This document shows positions 947 through 54,515 of a stretch of DNA of 64,000 nt, in pieces. Made by a program: the position numbers and the translations under genes. The stretch comes from Armatimonadota bacterium (GTDB taxonomy: Bacteria > Armatimonadota > UBA5829 > DTJY01). Every line of letters starts with the position of its first letter. Position 1 is the first letter of the stretch. Below the pieces are notes generated by a model that did not search any database, was not told the DNA's origin, and saw nothing but the letters and a program-made list of their open reading frames with translations. Location: assembly GCA_017993055.1 (NCBI GenBank), contig JAGONM010000017.1, positions 1 through 64,000 of the forward strand, written 5' to 3'.

Positions 947-1083
947 GTTCGCTGCCCCCCTTATCAAGGGGGACCGGCCTCCGGGCCGAGGGGGTTCTCC
1001 GGGGAGCTCTACCGGTCCAGCGTTTCCTGCAGCCTCGAGCCGGGAACCTCCCCCAACCCCTCCTTGATAAGTAGGGGAGTCCG
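947..1083. repeat. CCCCCTTATCAAGGGGG-type composite palindromic repeat, long copy
   Basis: Contains a CCCCCTTATCAAGGGGG palindrome (about 955-972), a shared block ACCGGCCTCCGGGCCGAGGG, and a second palindrome with CTCCTTGATAAG near 1059-1070. A shorter copy lacking the middle of about 45 bp lies inside a coding region at 29660-29749. It fills the gap downstream of the isocitrate dehydrogenase gene, where no other terminator is evident. Confidence 0.8.
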
Positions 1084-3163: not shown

Positions 3164-5085
3164 CCGCCCGCGTGCCCCCTGGCGTAGTTCAGCATCCCGC
3201 CGGCGAGGATGATCTCGGTCTGCCTCGGCGTAAGGTCGTGGCGTACCTCGAACTCCCAGCCGCAGGTCTTGTTCTTCATCGCGACGATCGCGCCTTGCCG
3301 GAGGGCTTGTCGCAGGTTCTCGATCTCGATCTCATCCTCGAAGCCGATGTCGTCGTAGTCGCCGGGGTTCACGAAAGTCAGCGGCAGTATCCCGAAGTTG
3401 ACGAGATTGGCGCGGTGGATCCGGGCGAACGACTTGACGATGACGGCCTTCACGCCGAGGTACATCGGGGCGAGCGCGGCGTGCTCCCGGCTGGATCCCT
3501 GCCCGTAGTTCTCGCCGCCGACGACGAATCCTCCGCCCACCTCCCTGGCGCGGTCGGCGAAATGAGGGTCTATGCTCTCGAAGACGTGCTCCGCTATCGC
3601 CGGGATGTTCGACCTGAGCGGCAGTATCCGCGCCCCCGCCGGCATGATATGGTCGGTAGTGATGTTGTCCGGCACCTTGAGCAGCACCTGCCCGGAGAGG
3701 CTGTCCGGCAGCGGCTCTCGTACCGGCAGCGGCTTGATGTTCGGGCCGCGGACGACCTCGACCTCGTCGGGGCTCTCCGAGGGCGGGACTATCATCTCGT
3801 CGTCAATGATGTATTTCTCGGGCGGCTCGACGCTCACGGGATCGCCCAGCTTCCGCGGGTCGGTCAGCTCCCCGGTTATCGCCGCCGCCGCCGCGACCTC
3901 CGGGCTGGCGAGGAAGATCTGGCCGGTCGGGGTGCCGCTCCTGCCCTCGAAGTTGCGGTTGAACGTCCGAACGCTCACGCCGCCGGACGGGGGCGCCTGC
4001 CCCATGCCGATGCACGGCCCGCAGGTCGTCTCCAGTATCCGCACGCCCGACTCGATCAGGTCCGCCAGCGCGCCGTTCCGGGCGATCATCTCGAAGACCT
4101 GCCTCGATCCGGGGGAGACTCCCACGCTGACCGAAGGATGGACTACCTTGCCCTTCAGCGCGCCGGCGAGGGTCATCAGGTCGCGGTAGGATGAGTTGGT
4201 GCAGCTTCCGACGAGCACCTGGTCAACTTTCATGCCCTCGACATCCTTGACCTTGACCACGCGGTCGGGCTGATGCGGCTGGGCGACCATCGGCTCGAGT
4301 TCGGAAAGGTTGATCTCTACCACCTCGTCGTACTTGGCGTCCGGGTCGGCCTCGATGCGCGTCCAGGCGTCCTCCCGCCCTTCGGCCTTCAGGAACTCAA
4401 GGGTCTGCTCGTCGCTCGGGAAGACGGAAGTCGTCGCCCCGAGCTCCGCGCCCATGTTCGCGATCGTCGCGCGATCCGGGACCGAGAGCGTCCGGACTCC
4501 CTCGCCGCCGTACTCCATGATCTTGCCGACGCCGCCCTTCACGCTCAGCCGCCTGAGCAGTTCCAGGATCACGTCCTTCGCGGAGACCCACGGGCCGAGG
4601 CGCCCGGCGAGCCTGACGAGGACGACGTGGGGCATGTTGAGGTGGAACGGCTCTCCCGCCATCGCCACCGCCACGTCCAGCCCGCCCGCGCCGATCGCGA
4701 TCATCCCGATCCCTCCGCCGGTAGGCGTGTGGCTGTCCGATCCGAGGAGCGTCTGGCCCGGCACGCCGAACCGCTCGAGGTGGACCTGGTGGCAGATGCC
4801 GTTGCCGGGGCGGGAGAAGTATATCCCGTGCCTGGCGGCGACGCTCTGGAGGAAGCGGTGGTCGTCGGCGTTCTCGTATCCGGTCTGAAGAGTGTTGTGG
4901 TCCACGTAGCTGACGGAGAGCTTCGTCTTCACGCGGGGGACGCCCATCGCCTCGAACTGGAGGTACGCCATGGTGCCGGTCGCGTCCTGTGTGAGCGTCT
5001 GGTCAATGCGGATCGCGATCTCTTCACCTGCCTTCATCTCGCCGGAGACGAGATGCTCGGAGAGTATCTTCTGCGTGACGTTCAT
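3160..5085 (-). CDS. acn: aconitate hydratase, Aquifex type
   Basis: A 641-aa single-chain aconitase with the catalytic domain first and the swivel domain at the C terminus. The three [4Fe-4S] ligands are visible: Cys295 in GSCTNSS, and Cys355 and Cys358 in TCGPCIGMG. GSDSHTPTGGG (about 115-125) and the swivel motif GENYGQGSSREHAA are also intact. The length of about 640 aa and the domain order match the Aquifex-type putative aconitase family rather than the roughly 900-aa AcnA or the two-subunit LeuCD and homoaconitase forms. Its neighbours (synthase upstream, isocitrate dehydrogenase downstream) support citrate-to-isocitrate isomerisation. No clear promoter is visible in 5086-5160. Confidence 0.9.
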   Translation of the reverse strand: MNVTQKILSEHLVSGEMKAGEEIAIRIDQTLTQDATGTMAYLQFEAMGVPRVKTKLSVSYVDHNTLQTGYENADDHRFLQSVAARHGIYFSRPGNGICHQVHLERFGVPGQTLLGSDSHTPTGGGIGMIAIGAGGLDVAVAMAGEPFHLNMPHVVLVRLAGRLGPWVSAKDVILELLRRLSVKGGVGKIMEYGGEGVRTLSVPDRATIANMGAELGATTSVFPSDEQTLEFLKAEGREDAWTRIEADPDAKYDEVVEINLSELEPMVAQPHQPDRVVKVKDVEGMKVDQVLVGSCTNSSYRDLMTLAGALKGKVVHPSVSVGVSPGSRQVFEMIARNGALADLIESGVRILETTCGPCIGMGQAPPSGGVSVRTFNRNFEGRSGTPTGQIFLASPEVAAAAAITGELTDPRKLGDPVSVEPPEKYIIDDEMIVPPSESPDEVEVVRGPNIKPLPVREPLPDSLSGQVLLKVPDNITTDHIMPAGARILPLRSNIPAIAEHVFESIDPHFADRAREVGGGFVVGGENYGQGSSREHAALAPMYLGVKAVIVKSFARIHRANLVNFGILPLTFVNPGDYDDIGFEDEIEIENLRQALRQGAIVAMKNKTCGWEFEVRHDLTPRQTEIILAGGMLNYARGHAGG

Positions 5086-25654: not shown

Positions 25655-25682
25655 CGCCTTTCCCTGCCTGGCGGTACCTACG

Positions 25683-25745
25683 GTCATGCTGAACTTGATT
25701 CAGCATACAGGGAAAGGATGGATGCTGAATCAAGTTCAGCATGAC
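25683..25745. repeat. 63-bp double-hairpin dispersed repeat, copy B
   Basis: Begins GTCATGCTGAACTTGATTCA and ends CAGCATGAC. Both halves are of the TGCTGA/TCAGCA type, so the element is nearly a full palindrome. It lies between divergent genes (GH78 and the esterase). Confidence 0.85.
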
Positions 25746-25816
25746 AACGGTGTGCGAGGCAGGAACAGAAGATACCCATCGGGAAATGGTAAGTCAGCAC
25801 CACACGGAGGAAACAC

Positions 25817-27124: not shown

Positions 27125-30100
27125 ATGAGAATATGCATGCTCGTCATCTTCGCAGCCCTTCTCGCCGTCCCCGGCTTCGCGTACACGCCGCCGGACTACC
27201 CGCAGAGGCCGATGCTCGTGGAGTCGGTTTCGGTGAGGATGCCCTCCCGGGCTGCGCTCGGCTCCAACATCAGGGCGCAGTTCGACATCCGGTCGAAGGA
27301 GCCGTTGCCGGCGGACGCGAGGGTATTCCTCTACCTGAGCCTGGATGATAGAACATATGTGTCCCATGTGACCCATCCGTCGCGTTCCGTCTCCGTCGCC
27401 GTACCGAAGGACATCCCCTCAGGCGAGTACTCCGTCGAGGCCGGCGTCTTCGGCGAGAAGGCCGCTTGGAGCGGTACGATCCGCATCACCGGCGCGCCGT
27501 CGCCGGTTCTGCGCAAGATCATCACTCGCGGCACGTTCACCGACAAGTACGGCGTTCCTCACCGCTGGCACATCAACGACGCGCACGCCCTGGTCTGGGA
27601 CGGCGTACCCTGGATTCCGGCAGGCGGCATGTTCATCTACGACCGCGACTGGAACCTCGTGCAGGCGCAGCTCGAACTGCTCGAGAAGTATGGGGTCAAG
27701 GACATCTACCTCCACCTCGGAGTGAATCAGCCCTACCTCTGGAAGGACTACTCGGACGACGACTACGCCTACTTCCAGAAGACCATTGACTACCTCGACG
27801 AGCACGGTTTCCGCTACGGTGTCGAGTTCCAGGCGCTGGAGTCAAAGGGATACGGCTACCCCTATGTCGCGGGCGGCCCGAGGGTCGAGGTCACGGAGAG
27901 CGGGAAGGTCCGCGCCGAGGATAAGGACGTCAGAGGCGGATACTTCATGGTGGAGAATCAAGCGACCGGGGAGATGGTCCAGCACGGGTCGGTCACCGTG
28001 AGCGACAACAAGACCATGGAGGCCGACGTGAAGGTTCCGGGTACGGGCAAGTACAAGGTGATCTTCCTCCCCGACAAGATCGACGACGGTTTCGTCATGT
28101 ACTACTGGGGCGGCGTCTACGAGAAGTACCGCGACAAGGTGCTCGCTCACTACAGCAAGGTGAAGCTCGGACCCGGATTCCGGTTCGTGGTAGATCCGCT
28201 CTGGAACGAGATGAACACGCGGCACGGCCTCATTCCGAGTACCGACGACTACCGGCAGGCCTTCGGGAAGTGGCTCCGCCAGCGGTACGGCACGATCGAG
28301 AAGCTGAACGCCGCGTGGAAGCCTAGGGACGGCGCGTTCCCCGACTTCGCATCGGCCGCGAGCGCGGTCTCGATGGAGCGGACCGACGACCGGAAGACGA
28401 AGAAGCTGATCCAGTGGGTCTATGCCCCGAAGGTTGACAAGCTATATGCCCTCGATGCGACCACCAGCCAGTTCAACTACGACATCCGCGAGTATCACGG
28501 CCGGGCGATCCTTGAGTTCTGCAACCGGATCGCGGACGACTTCGGCCGGATCGCCGACGTGCCGGTGATCTACAAGTGCTTCTCGGACGTGGACTGGTGG
28601 CACATCAACGACACGGGCTCTGCCGGCGGCCACGACGGACTGGGGATGGAATCATACGGCACGGGCGAGCCGATGCTCCTCTTCATGGGCGTCCATGCAT
28701 ACGGCGAACTCAAGCAGGCGACGAAGACCACCTGGCTCGTCGTTACCGAGACCGGCGAGGGCAACCATCAGGACGCGTCTCCATCGCGCAACAAAGGCAT
28801 CGGCTACACCAGCCGCATGGGTACGATGTACGCCAACTACAATGCCCTGCTCTCCGGCGGCGCGAAGGGTGTCTTCCAGTACTACATGATAGGTGGGCGG
28901 GGTGTAGACCAGCCGTGGACCGACGCCGTCTCGCGCGATCCCCGGCAGCTCGAATGGCTTGCGACCTACGGCCGGATTCTGGCAAATGCGGACAAGCTCG
29001 TAGACTACAAGCCGCCGATCTACCTCAGACTGCCGGCGCACTTCAACCAGCACAGCATGGAGATCTACTCCGAGCCGAACTCCGATTTCTCGAACTACGG
29101 CGGCTGGTGGTGGCGCGAGCCGATCGGCCGCTCGCAGAACAACATCTGGATCGTGCCCGAGGTCAGCATGAAGGCCGACGTTGCGATGCATATCGTCAAC
29201 CTCGAGAAGCAGCCCGCGAGCGAGCGGTTCGCCGACGAGCTGACTCAGGCGATCGAGGACGGCAAGCGAGTGACGATGATCGGCTTCAGATATGACCTCG
29301 GGACTATACCCATAGTCGATCGGTACTACACCGACCGGTTCTCGACCGACAAGGACGGCCGCAAGTTCCAGGTGCTCCTCCCATCGCCCTCCGGGAGAGG
29401 GCCTGGGGGTGAGGGGGTCAAAGTCCTCGGCCAAAACGAGAAGGGCGAGGTCTGGAACCTAATCGTCGGCAACCTCCAGATCAACAGCAAGGAAGTCTTC
29501 CCCAGGCACGGCTACCAGCCGCAGGACCTGGCGGTCGGCAGGGAGAAGGCGCTCGATCCATACTACGGGATGTTCGATCTGCTCGGGGTGAAGCTCTTCG
29601 ACGGCGGGTTTGCCTACAGGGATGGCGGTGACTACGTGACGGTTGTGGAAACCGCAGAAGCTGTCCCCCTTGATAAGGGGGACCGGCCTCGGGGCCGAGG
29701 GGGTTCCGGAACCTCCTCCCAGCCTTCCTTATCAAGGAGGGGAGTTGCAGATGCCTTTGCGATCCCCGTGAAACCGGGCGAGAAAGTGGATGCGCGGTAC
29801 CCGGACGGAACTCCGGCGGGTGAGGTGAGGGATGGGAAACTGCACGTCTATCTCGAGCCGGTGTACATGAAACTCGTCCGCGCGAACCTCCCGTGGGCGC
29901 CGGAGGGAATCATGGTGGACTCCCTGGCGGCCCGGGATGCGGTTATCATCAAGAGTGCAGACCGAATACAGCCGAGTAAGCTTACGAGTAGGAGTACGAG
30001 TACGGGGCCTTACTCTGACTCCTCCATCACAGTCGAGGGCGAGAACCCCGTCGCCCACAACTGGAACTACAGCCGGATGGGCGCGATGCCGAACCTCTCC

Positions 30101-31048
30101 GGCGCGGCATGCCTCGCACTCGAGACCGCAGTCCCTCCTCCGGCGGACACCGGCTGGTACGCGAAGTACAGGTTCCGCGCCGACAAGCCGGGCGAGTATG
30201 CGATGTGGATCAGGGAGAACCTGCTCGGCTACTCGTCACCCTCTTCCTGGAGGATAGACGTCGGCGAGTGGCATGACTCGCCGAACACGCTCGTGCCTAG
30301 GGACGTCGAGGTCGTCACCCTGTACAACGCGCTCGAGGACACCCGCCAGATCTTCGCATGGTATCACTACGCCAACGTGAAGCTCCCAGCGGGCGATCAC
30401 ACGCTCACGATCAAGGTCAACGAGCCGCGCGGGAAGAACATGCTCGTCACCATGGCCGACGACCGCCCCTACGCCAAGATGATCGACTGCATCCTCTTCG
30501 GCCCGTCCCATCCGTCTCATCCGTCCTATCCGTCCCACAATCTCCTGGCAGACAACAGCCTCGAGTTCGATGAGGACAAGGACGACAAGCCCGACTACTG
30601 GACGAAGTCCGAGGACTCGGACAAGCTCGCGTGGACGAAGCCGGGCTGGGGCAACTACAAGATCGAGGGCCTGGTGGACATCAACTGCGGGATGCGCGAC
30701 TCGTACACCGGCCAGCGCGCCCTCCGCATTGATCCCGGCCCGTCCGAGCGGTCGTGGAACAGTGTCAGGCTGCCTGTAAGGCCTGGGGTGGAGTACGAGC
30801 TGGCGGGGTTCGTGCGCTCGACGAGCACCGATGCCCTGGGCATGTTGAGCGTCACATGGTACGACTCCGCGGGAAGAAAGATCGGGCGCACAGACACCAC
30901 TACCGTGGGAAACTCCGACTGGAAGCGGGTGGAGGTCACGGATGCCAGGAAAGCGTCGCACGCCGTCATATCCTGCGTGGTAACTCCCGGCACCAACGGC
31001 AGCGTATGGTTCGACGAGATCGTCTTCGCCGGGAGAGCGAAGCCGTAA
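27125..31048 (+). CDS. very large secreted glycoside hydrolase (GH42-like barrel, C-terminal CBM modules) carrying repeat insertions
   Basis: A 1307-aa protein with a signal peptide (about 1-19). An Ig-like domain (about 28-120) and a TIM barrel (about 135-720) follow, with GMFIYDRDWNLVQAQLELLE, DPLWNEMNTRHG (a probable acid/base Glu) and WLVVTETGEGNHQD (a possible nucleophile Glu). This arrangement resembles GH42-like beta-galactosidase-type barrels. A beta domain and two carbohydrate-binding-like modules occupy about 970-1307; the last contains NLLADNSLEFDEDKDDKPDY. At least five segments look like translated DNA repeats (27354-27384, 29379-29420, 29660-29749, 29968-30010, 30504-30538), all in frame. 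They lie mainly between domains, so function may be retained. GAAGGAG precedes ATG 27125. Confidence 0.75.
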   Translation: MRICMLVIFAALLAVPGFAYTPPDYPQRPMLVESVSVRMPSRAALGSNIRAQFDIRSKEPLPADARVFLYLSLDDRTYVSHVTHPSRSVSVAVPKDIPSGEYSVEAGVFGEKAAWSGTIRITGAPSPVLRKIITRGTFTDKYGVPHRWHINDAHALVWDGVPWIPAGGMFIYDRDWNLVQAQLELLEKYGVKDIYLHLGVNQPYLWKDYSDDDYAYFQKTIDYLDEHGFRYGVEFQALESKGYGYPYVAGGPRVEVTESGKVRAEDKDVRGGYFMVENQATGEMVQHGSVTVSDNKTMEADVKVPGTGKYKVIFLPDKIDDGFVMYYWGGVYEKYRDKVLAHYSKVKLGPGFRFVVDPLWNEMNTRHGLIPSTDDYRQAFGKWLRQRYGTIEKLNAAWKPRDGAFPDFASAASAVSMERTDDRKTKKLIQWVYAPKVDKLYALDATTSQFNYDIREYHGRAILEFCNRIADDFGRIADVPVIYKCFSDVDWWHINDTGSAGGHDGLGMESYGTGEPMLLFMGVHAYGELKQATKTTWLVVTETGEGNHQDASPSRNKGIGYTSRMGTMYANYNALLSGGAKGVFQYYMIGGRGVDQPWTDAVSRDPRQLEWLATYGRILANADKLVDYKPPIYLRLPAHFNQHSMEIYSEPNSDFSNYGGWWWREPIGRSQNNIWIVPEVSMKADVAMHIVNLEKQPASERFADELTQAIEDGKRVTMIGFRYDLGTIPIVDRYYTDRFSTDKDGRKFQVLLPSPSGRGPGGEGVKVLGQNEKGEVWNLIVGNLQINSKEVFPRHGYQPQDLAVGREKALDPYYGMFDLLGVKLFDGGFAYRDGGDYVTVVETAEAVPLDKGDRPRGRGGSGTSSQPSLSRRGVADAFAIPVKPGEKVDARYPDGTPAGEVRDGKLHVYLEPVYMKLVRANLPWAPEGIMVDSLAARDAVIIKSADRIQPSKLTSRSTSTGPYSDSSITVEGENPVAHNWNYSRMGAMPNLSGAACLALETAVPPPADTGWYAKYRFRADKPGEYAMWIRENLLGYSSPSSWRIDVGEWHDSPNTLVPRDVEVVTLYNALEDTRQIFAWYHYANVKLPAGDHTLTIKVNEPRGKNMLVTMADDRPYAKMIDCILFGPSHPSHPSYPSHNLLADNSLEFDEDKDDKPDYWTKSEDSDKLAWTKPGWGNYKIEGLVDINCGMRDSYTGQRALRIDPGPSERSWNSVRLPVRPGVEYELAGFVRSTSTDALGMLSVTWYDSAGRKIGRTDTTTVGNSDWKRVEVTDARKASHAVISCVVTPGTNGSVWFDEIVFAGRAKP
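27354..27384. repeat. 9-bp-period tract inside the glycosidase gene
   Basis: CATATGTGTCC, CATGTGACC and CATCCGTCG follow each other and are translated as YVSHVTHPSRS in the Ig-like domain. It has the CAT-NNN-TCC pattern of the intergenic tracts. Confidence 0.5.
29379..29420. repeat. CCCTCCGGGAGAGGG-type palindromic repeat, in frame
   Basis: Contains CCCTCCGGGAGAGGG and GGGGGTGAGGGGG. It is translated as PSPSGRGPGGEG, a low-complexity phrase unlike the surrounding domain. A related CCCCTCTCCCC/GGGGAGAGGGG palindrome is intergenic at 45134-45163. Confidence 0.7.
29660..29749. repeat. CCCCCTTGATAAGGGGG-type composite repeat, in-frame copy
   Basis: Shares the left palindrome (29665-29681), the block ACCGGCCTCGGGGCCGAGGG and the right CTTCCTTATCAAGGAGG end with the intergenic element at 947-1083, but lacks the middle. 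It is 90 bp, a multiple of three, and is read as VPLDKGDRPRGRGGSG and onward without a stop. Confidence 0.85.
29968..30010. repeat. ACGAGTAGGAGT reiterated tract, in frame
   Basis: TTACGAGTAGGAGTACGAGT then ACGGGGCC is translated as LTSRSTSTG. A similar GAGTATGAGTAGGAG phrase occurs on the minus strand just upstream of the aconitase gene (about 5091-5106). Confidence 0.5.
30504..30538. repeat. 9-bp-period tract, in frame
   Basis: CCCATCCGT (30507), CTCATCCGT (30516) and CCTATCCGT (30525) are followed by CCCAC. Because the period is three codons, it is read as SHPSHPSYPSH, between two carbohydrate-binding-like domains. Confidence 0.8.
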
Positions 31049-40577: not shown

Positions 40578-41393
40578 ATGAAACCGATCACGATGCTGCT
40601 TCTGATACTGACCGCGCTCGCTCCCGCCCTGGCGGAGAGCCCCCCCGCGGGGATCATCGGCGGGGTGGGGCTGACGCATCTGACCGTCTACGAGCAGCGC
40701 CCCGCGCCGGACGGCCTGAACTCAGGCTGCCCGCACGTCCATGCGATTACCGACGAGGCGTACTACGTCCTGAGCGGGAGCGGCAGGGCCGAGCTGCACG
40801 ATATGCAGAACGGCTTCCGCACCGTCGAGCTGAAGCGAGGGGAGTACCTGCAGTTCCCGCCCGGAGTCGTGCACCGCATCGTCAGCACCCGGCGGCTCGT
40901 CATCCTCGCGCTGATGGGCAACGCGGGCCTCGCCGAGCGGGGCGACGCGCGGATCTACTTCGGCAAGGCGGTTGACGACAACCCGGACGAGTTTGCGCGG
41001 CTCGTCGGCCTTGCGAAGGCGAAGGGCCTCGACGGGGCGCTCGAGCGCCGTGACGCGGCGGTGAAGGCGTACATCGGCCTGATGAAGCTCTGGGAGACCG
41101 ATAGGGAAGCGTACTTCCTGGAGTTGAAGCGGTTCGTCGGCGCGCATCTCTCGGCGATGGAGAAGATCAAGCCGAAGTTCGCCGACGCGGTCGCGCAGGG
41201 CCCGCTCCACTGGGGTCAGGTCTCCCAGCAGCGGATCGAGGCGCTTCCGGGCTCCAGGCCGACCTACGACGCAGCCTTCCACGACGGGACGTCCGACTTC
41301 GCCTACGGGATGTGCGGGGTTCTCCGCCCGTTCCTCTCGCTCAAGCCGATTCCCGACGGCAGCGGGAAGGCCTCACCACCGCCGTCACCCTGA
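40578..41393 (+). CDS. secreted cupin-domain protein, 3' end formed by a repeat
   Basis: A 271-aa protein with a signal peptide (about 1-20). A cupin fold follows: CPHVHAITDEAYYVLSGSG supplies two His and a Glu, and LQFPPGVVHRIVS the last His, so a metal site is likely. The C-terminal half is helical (about 140-230) and of unknown role. The reading frame runs into the dispersed 62-bp repeat at 41384, whose CCCTGA provides the stop; the last residues PPSP therefore belong partly to the repeat. The original end may have been different. GAGAGGAATCGCC precedes ATG 40578. Confidence 0.75.
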   Translation: MKPITMLLLILTALAPALAESPPAGIIGGVGLTHLTVYEQRPAPDGLNSGCPHVHAITDEAYYVLSGSGRAELHDMQNGFRTVELKRGEYLQFPPGVVHRIVSTRRLVILALMGNAGLAERGDARIYFGKAVDDNPDEFARLVGLAKAKGLDGALERRDAAVKAYIGLMKLWETDREAYFLELKRFVGAHLSAMEKIKPKFADAVAQGPLHWGQVSQQRIEALPGSRPTYDAAFHDGTSDFAYGMCGVLRPFLSLKPIPDGSGKASPPPSP

Positions 41394-41445
41394 ACTCGAT
41401 TCAGGGTCCACGCCGGTCTGGATGCTGAGTCAAGCTCAGCATGAC
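41384..41445. repeat. 62-bp double-hairpin dispersed repeat, copy C
   Basis: Begins GTCACCCTGAACTCGATTCA and ends CAGCATGAC. The left half is of the CCCTGA/TCAGGG type and the right half TGCTGA/TCAGCA. Its bases 8-10 are the stop codon of the cupin gene. Confidence 0.9.
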
Positions 41446-41477
41446 GGTCTGCGACCGGCGGGACGGCATATCCACGC

Positions 41478-41539
41478 GTCACCCTGAACTCGATTCAGGG
41501 TCCACCCCGGCCTGGATGCTGAAACGATATCAGCATGAC
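41478..41539. repeat. 62-bp double-hairpin dispersed repeat, copy D
   Basis: A tandem partner of copy C, 32 bp downstream, with the same half-types. The right loop differs (AACGATAT instead of GTCAAGC). This is the only tandem pair in the window. Confidence 0.9.
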
Positions 41540-41556
41540 GGTCTGCCCACTGGTCA

Positions 41557-54262: not shown

Positions 54263-54411
54263 AGTTCGATCGGCCTGATGCGTCGGATCAGTCTCTACAT
54301 CCAGAATAGTCGGAACAGGTGTGTCAATGCAATAGAGGAGGTCTGTCTGAGCGGTCCCGAATCGGTCTTGGCGCGGCGGCTCTGGAGTATGCCCGGCGGT
54401 GGGCGCGACGC

Positions 54412-54474
54412 GTCATGCTGAGCTTGACTCAGCATCCAGGAGAGCGGTGGACCCTGAATCAAGTTCAGGGTGAC
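54412..54474. repeat. 63-bp double-hairpin dispersed repeat, copy E
   Basis: Begins GTCATGCTGAGCTTGACTCA and ends CAGGGTGAC. The left half is of the TGCTGA/TCAGCA type and the right half CCCTGA/TCAGGG, the reverse order of copies C and D. It lies in the 314-bp gap upstream of the ECF operon; the rest of that gap shows only the promoter at 54236. Confidence 0.9.
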
Positions 54475-54515
54475 GGGCGGTCGTCCCAGGTGACAGGCGC
54501 GGCGGAGGAAGGCCG

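Follow-up and report, generated by a model that had tools for sequence, protein, structure and literature searches.

In-frame copies of several short-repeat families in a probable glycosidase gene of an uncultured Armatimonadota bacterium

A probable glycosidase gene in a 64-kb stretch of Armatimonadota DNA (the whole stretch analysed, here called the window) contains segments that resemble DNA repeats, which raises the question of how a long protein-coding frame came to hold them and whether they serve the protein. The original prediction had counted at least five in-frame segments derived from repeats and had proposed that the lineage tolerates such insertions at domain borders and may use them to lengthen linkers. 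The observation was partly confirmed and the interpretation partly supported, and two points were corrected: site 1 does not represent an insertion, and linkers are not lengthened in general. Very probably, several families of short repeats are involved, whose in-gene copies survive in tolerant loops through near-neutral tolerance and not through linker engineering. The features discussed are listed in the table.

Table. Repeat-related features of the window and of the glycosidase gene.
Feature	Position	Strand	Evidence
GH42-like glycosidase gene, 1307 aa, holding the repeat-derived segments	27125..31048	+	open frame; relatives at 50-72% identity; weak GH42 match
Site 1, two 9-mer-like units	27354..27384	+	length equal to nearest relatives, flanking residues conserved; odd codon usage
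Site 2, hairpin-like repeat G, reads LPSPSGRGPGGEGV	29379..29420	+	gap in 5/5 relatives; diverged genome copies; low codon score
Site 3, A half of dispersed palindromic element	29660..29706	+	~36 genome copies at 87-98%; 89% to 951-997
Site 3, B half, usual spacer to A missing	29707..29749	+	B halves in genome at 79-89%
Site 4, 6-bp units GAGTAC/GAGTAG, linker ahead of carbohydrate-binding-like region	29968..30010	+	pattern search
Site 5, 9-bp units CCATNNGTC, reads SHPSHPSYPSH, linker ahead of last domain	30499..30538	+	
Intergenic A + spacer + B copy, originally predicted partner of site 3	947..1083	+	outside called genes
Family D copies	881-945, 25682-25746, 41383-41452, 41477-41546, 54411-54475		

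The frame runs through 1307 residues without a stop, in agreement with the claim that all segments keep the frame. The only Pfam match of the protein was Glyco_hydro_42 (19.4 bits against a cut-off of 21), and 33 residues matched solved beta-galactosidases. Because the Pfam match falls slightly under the family cut-off, the assignment as a glycosidase is likely but not certain. Two structure predictions, with mean pLDDT of 44 and 37, were too poor for placing the sites. For comparison, five proteins from other genera were aligned over nearly their full length, one of them (G002) stopping at a contig end. G004 and G002, from the same family, shared 70-72% identity with the glycosidase, and G005, G009 and G007, from the same class, 50-52%. 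The named relatives are from Armatimonadetes assemblies. A homologue scan with the single glycosidase protein gave no match, and an alignment-based scan gave three, two of which apparently coincide with G007 and G009.

The gene was also compared with its own genome, an 82-contig draft, without preselecting sites; 40 of the 163 candidate places were scored, and weaker repeats may escape at this depth. Multi-copy matches were returned for site 3 (query 2534-2626) and site 4 (query 2840-2882), and site 5 was found at one place (query 3380-3411), with many more by pattern search. A conserved coding motif (query 1158-1194) was returned as well.

Site 3 consists of an A half and then a B half of a dispersed element. 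In other copies a short spacer separates A (47 bp) from B, which gives an element of about 108 bp with related ends AAGCT...AGCTT; the order B-A is also seen, as is intermixing of A and B with two more families, C and D. A 108-nt consensus-like A+B copy folded 3.85 standard deviations better than shuffled sequences (z-score -3.85), and its ends paired in the fold. The predicted match of the whole 90-bp segment to the intergenic copy stood for the A half (89% over 47 bp). Compared with G004 and G002 the stretch is 11 residues longer, and compared with G005, G009 and G007 21-23 residues longer; G004 and G002 carry an unrelated extra segment where site 3 sits. At site 2 the protein gains a net 8 residues (29396-29419) as a clean insertion: where all five relatives have PTPTS-K/R, the glycosidase has PSPSG-RGPGGEGV-K. 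The exact pattern of site 2 has one genome copy; a looser search added 2-3 diverged ones (80%, E 0.001 to 0.7), two of which lie inside other genes. Site 2 is real, at low copy number. That the segments entered by insertion is suggested by comparison with relatives at 70% identity.

The remaining sites behave differently in length. The 6-bp pattern of site 4 had 54 matches in the genome against 1 for a reversed-pattern control, and 4 in the window against 0.01 expected; there was no net length difference from G004 and G002, and the more distant proteins had 48 more residues at this place. The 9-bp unit CCATNNGTC of site 5, which has two free positions, gave 66 genome matches against 0 for the reversed pattern and 10 in the window against 0.71 expected. 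The site 5 array, originally placed at 30504-30538, lies in a linker that is 10 residues shorter than that of G004 and 13 shorter than those of the other relatives. Several 9-bp arrays continue into their own inverted copy around GTCCCATGGGAC, as in CopA. Site 1 showed no more than a pair of 9-mer units, which carry one mismatch among the fixed bases. An insertion was rejected there, with no length change against the nearest relatives; the site is unproven as a repeat and possibly arose by chance. The count of at least five segments is thus safer as four, sites 2-5. The expected gap in homologues appeared as a gain of length at sites 2 and 3 and was missing at sites 1, 4 and 5, while the expected further genome copies were found for sites 2-5. 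For these four sites, neither the same residues in distant homologues nor a lack of genome copies was seen, either of which had been named as evidence against repeat insertion. The linkers of G004 gave no match when searched against the repeats of the G004 and G002 genomes.

Codon usage provided a separate line of support. A model was trained with 35 long frames from the window, the glycosidase gene included, and stretches of 15 codons were slid along the gene. The lowest scores fell, in order, in site 3 (29696-29740, within the B half), site 4, site 1, site 2, an unrelated stretch and site 5, so that the five sites take ranks 1, 2, 3, 4 and 6 among the most foreign stretches of the gene. The repeat-derived stretches therefore look non-native for genes of this organism.

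In-frame copies were found in other genes as well, in several frames and both orientations. In a GH2 beta-mannosidase, A occurs three times, spread over two places, and the protein exceeds a solved homologue by roughly 45 residues at the first of these; a complete A+B copy lies in a GltD-like oxidoreductase. The peptide read from A varies between genes or copies (AVPLDKGDRPRGRGG, TPSAQRPVPLIKGDS and NPLGPEAGPPWQGGQL). G-type segments lie in frame in a type ISP enzyme and in HemW (313 bits against a curated cut-off of 205), where the segment adds 9 residues relative to four relatives. 9-mer arrays occur in PurL, with length unchanged against four orthologues, ahead of the C-terminal domain of MetG, and in an ABC ATPase and others. 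In CopA, an in-frame 9-mer array (L170, ~718-775) lies in the nucleotide-binding domain of this copper ATPase and runs into its own inverted copy at CCATGGGAC; the protein has nearly the same length as its solved homologue. Together with sites 2-5, these genes agree with the proposal that this genome tolerates in-frame repeats in loops and at domain borders. In G003, from another genus of the family (L188), the same loop of HemW is occupied by an unrelated, repeat-like array whose units resemble CAGTGAG and ACTCCCATA, and is 17 residues longer than usual.

Most copies lie outside genes. In 452 kb of the genome (about 87% coding by model and chosen partly as repeat-rich), supplemented by search matches, 29 of 33 A copies, 22 of 25 B copies, 52 of 53 C copies, 51 of 54 D copies and 19 of 21 6-mer arrays were intergenic; about 8 of 40 9-mer arrays lay in genes. 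With so much of the sequence coding, this distribution means that genes are strongly avoided. Apart from those in this gene, about 11 intragenic sites were found; the glycosidase gene makes up about 0.12% of the coding DNA. By rough estimate, four families in this gene are far beyond an even scatter, even as the best of ~3300 genes; the estimate is a guide and not a test, because the families were picked for their presence in the gene. A 17-bp C match within a gene in L171, and matches such as L115, probably reflect chance and were set aside. Family D is a dispersed palindrome (CGTCATGCTGAACTTGATTCAGCATCC...GGTGACG) with none of its 54 copies in the 452 kb fully within a gene; two copies, 90% identical, lie 94 bp apart.

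These patterns suggest the following scenario. The genome harbours a ~108-bp palindrome of two hairpin halves (A/B), the hairpin-like G, and 9-bp and 6-bp arrays. Their copies, as mobile or copied DNA, would land roughly at random. A copy within a gene would survive only where it brings no stop into the reading frame, does not shift that frame and occupies a loop or linker irrelevant to folding; selection would purge copies that are not frame-neutral or lie outside tolerant loops. The glycosidase, with its weakly constrained linkers, may thus have retained copies of four families, which would owe their persistence to near-neutral tolerance and not to selection for longer linkers.

Could the repeats instead be useful, with selection turning existing repeat DNA into new or longer flexible linkers of large enzymes? 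The presence of four families in one gene would fit, as would the position of sites 4 and 5 at domain borders and the two places hit in the GH2 glycosidase. We nevertheless regard this as improbable, since only sites 2 and 3 are lengthened, whereas the site 4 linker is of equal length and that of site 5 is shorter than in the relatives. Housekeeping enzymes, HemW and PurL among them, have repeats in their loops too, and tolerance alone explains the placement. The suggestion that repeats generally serve to lengthen linkers accordingly fails, and no adaptive use was shown. Several insertions in a single gene might also betray relaxed selection on a gene becoming a pseudogene, a very improbable reading given that the 1307-codon frame is intact, codon usage between the sites is native (mean +0.36) and about 300 columns are invariant among the six aligned proteins.

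S-, H-, P-, G- and T-rich linkers are common, and site 1 may be one of them, so the likeness of these low-complexity linkers to repeats could have arisen at the protein level by chance. Against such convergence, the same DNA occurs between genes and within them in varied frames and orientations, and the reversed-pattern controls gave 0-1 matches; it is contradicted for sites 3-5, the case against it being weakest for sites 1 and 2, and overall we think it extremely unlikely. Misjoining at repeats is a known hazard of a draft in 82 contigs, yet both flanks of every site are collinear with the relatives in a single frame and the pattern is seen again in many genes, which makes an assembly artefact scarcely credible. 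Near-neutral tolerance of repeat copies therefore remains the preferred reading.

In-frame mobile palindromes in bacterial proteins have been described mainly from Rickettsia and enterobacteria. The closest known systems are the Rickettsia palindromic elements (RPEs) and the enterobacterial RU elements. As portrayed in the reviews PMC2229807 and PMC10969869, RPEs (Ogata et al. 2000) are small dispersed palindromes, intergenic and in frame in conserved genes, apparently tolerated by the host; they are reported there to encode a conserved peptide and to be nearly half intragenic. The A+B element resembles them as a palindrome in the range of ~100-150 bp with terminal inverted repeats (108 nt, AAGCT...AGCTT), and in-frame copies in conserved genes were likewise found in the glycosidase, GH2 and GltD-like genes (A/B) and in HemW (G). 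Unlike RPEs, however, the families here do not each encode one conserved peptide, A being read in several frames and both orientations. Several unrelated families occur in one gene, most copies are intergenic, and short-unit arrays sit in loops without lengthening them. Judged by these features, the repeats were not filed as RPEs, because there is no single peptide per family and the arrays are another kind of repeat. The MITE-like RU-1/ERIC, RU-2 and RU-3 elements of enterobacteria are roughly 100-170 bp long and mostly intergenic, with some in-frame fusions in conserved genes (Delihas 2007, PMC2759123). By description the present elements are alike in size, in being mostly intergenic and in having some in-frame copies in conserved genes, but differ in host phylum and in their mixture with 6-bp and 9-bp arrays. 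A further likeness to MITEs is seen in the terminal inverted repeats of A+B, which pair in the folded copy.

REP/REPIN elements, which are moved by RAYT transposases, are short GC-rich palindromes and largely intergenic, and the palindromes described here share these traits. They differ in that neither of two IS200/IS605-type Y1 transposase genes (Y1_Tnp; L156 and L157, one possibly a fragment), the only type sought, is flanked by repeats A-D. Among transposases of this type none tied to A/B was found and, with no repeat-flanked RAYT gene, a RAYT origin is unsupported. Element A was absent from four family members searched and had matches, mostly as B-like halves, in only 3 other genomes of 120. 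Its pattern gave no match in viral contigs and one weak partial match in plasmids, and the window contained no Rfam family. Short tandem repeats whose unit is divisible by three cannot shift the frame when their copy number changes. The 9-bp and 6-bp units at sites 5 and 4 share this property, but they are scattered over the genome in short arrays, some of which continue into inverted copies, and are mostly extragenic. The system is like that of the Rickettsia elements, yet it has several unrelated families, is free in frame and orientation, and includes tandem arrays by which loops are replaced and not lengthened. It adds another phylum, in which the reading frames of glycosidases, a tRNA synthetase and purine enzymes take in repeats from several families.

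Length is added by the hairpin elements (A/B and G), while the arrays at site 4 and in PurL and CopA fill a loop with little or no net change. Sites 4 and 5 gain no length, and plain insertion therefore does not explain them. Such arrays go beyond simple insertion; in-place templated copying and insertion followed by trimming are both possible. A wider reading is that arrays throughout the family overwrite enzyme loops and linkers in frame and at constant length by copying, the same loops being hit again across genera by unrelated repeats. We hold this to be rather unlikely; if true, constant-length overwriting would amount to a lasting way in which linkers evolve, over and above tolerated transposon insertion. 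The HemW loop, hit in two genera, allows the comparative question of whether such DNA is merely tolerated or shapes linkers.

Two further observations concern the surroundings of the repeats. Contigs C15, C26 and C70 of G000 are crowded between genes with mixed A, B and C repeats, and coding density drops to 67% at the end of C26. In L050 (~1501-1519), a 6-mer array ends in GAGTATGAAAGAGGAG, and the repeat seems to provide the ATG of a downstream glycosidase-like gene.
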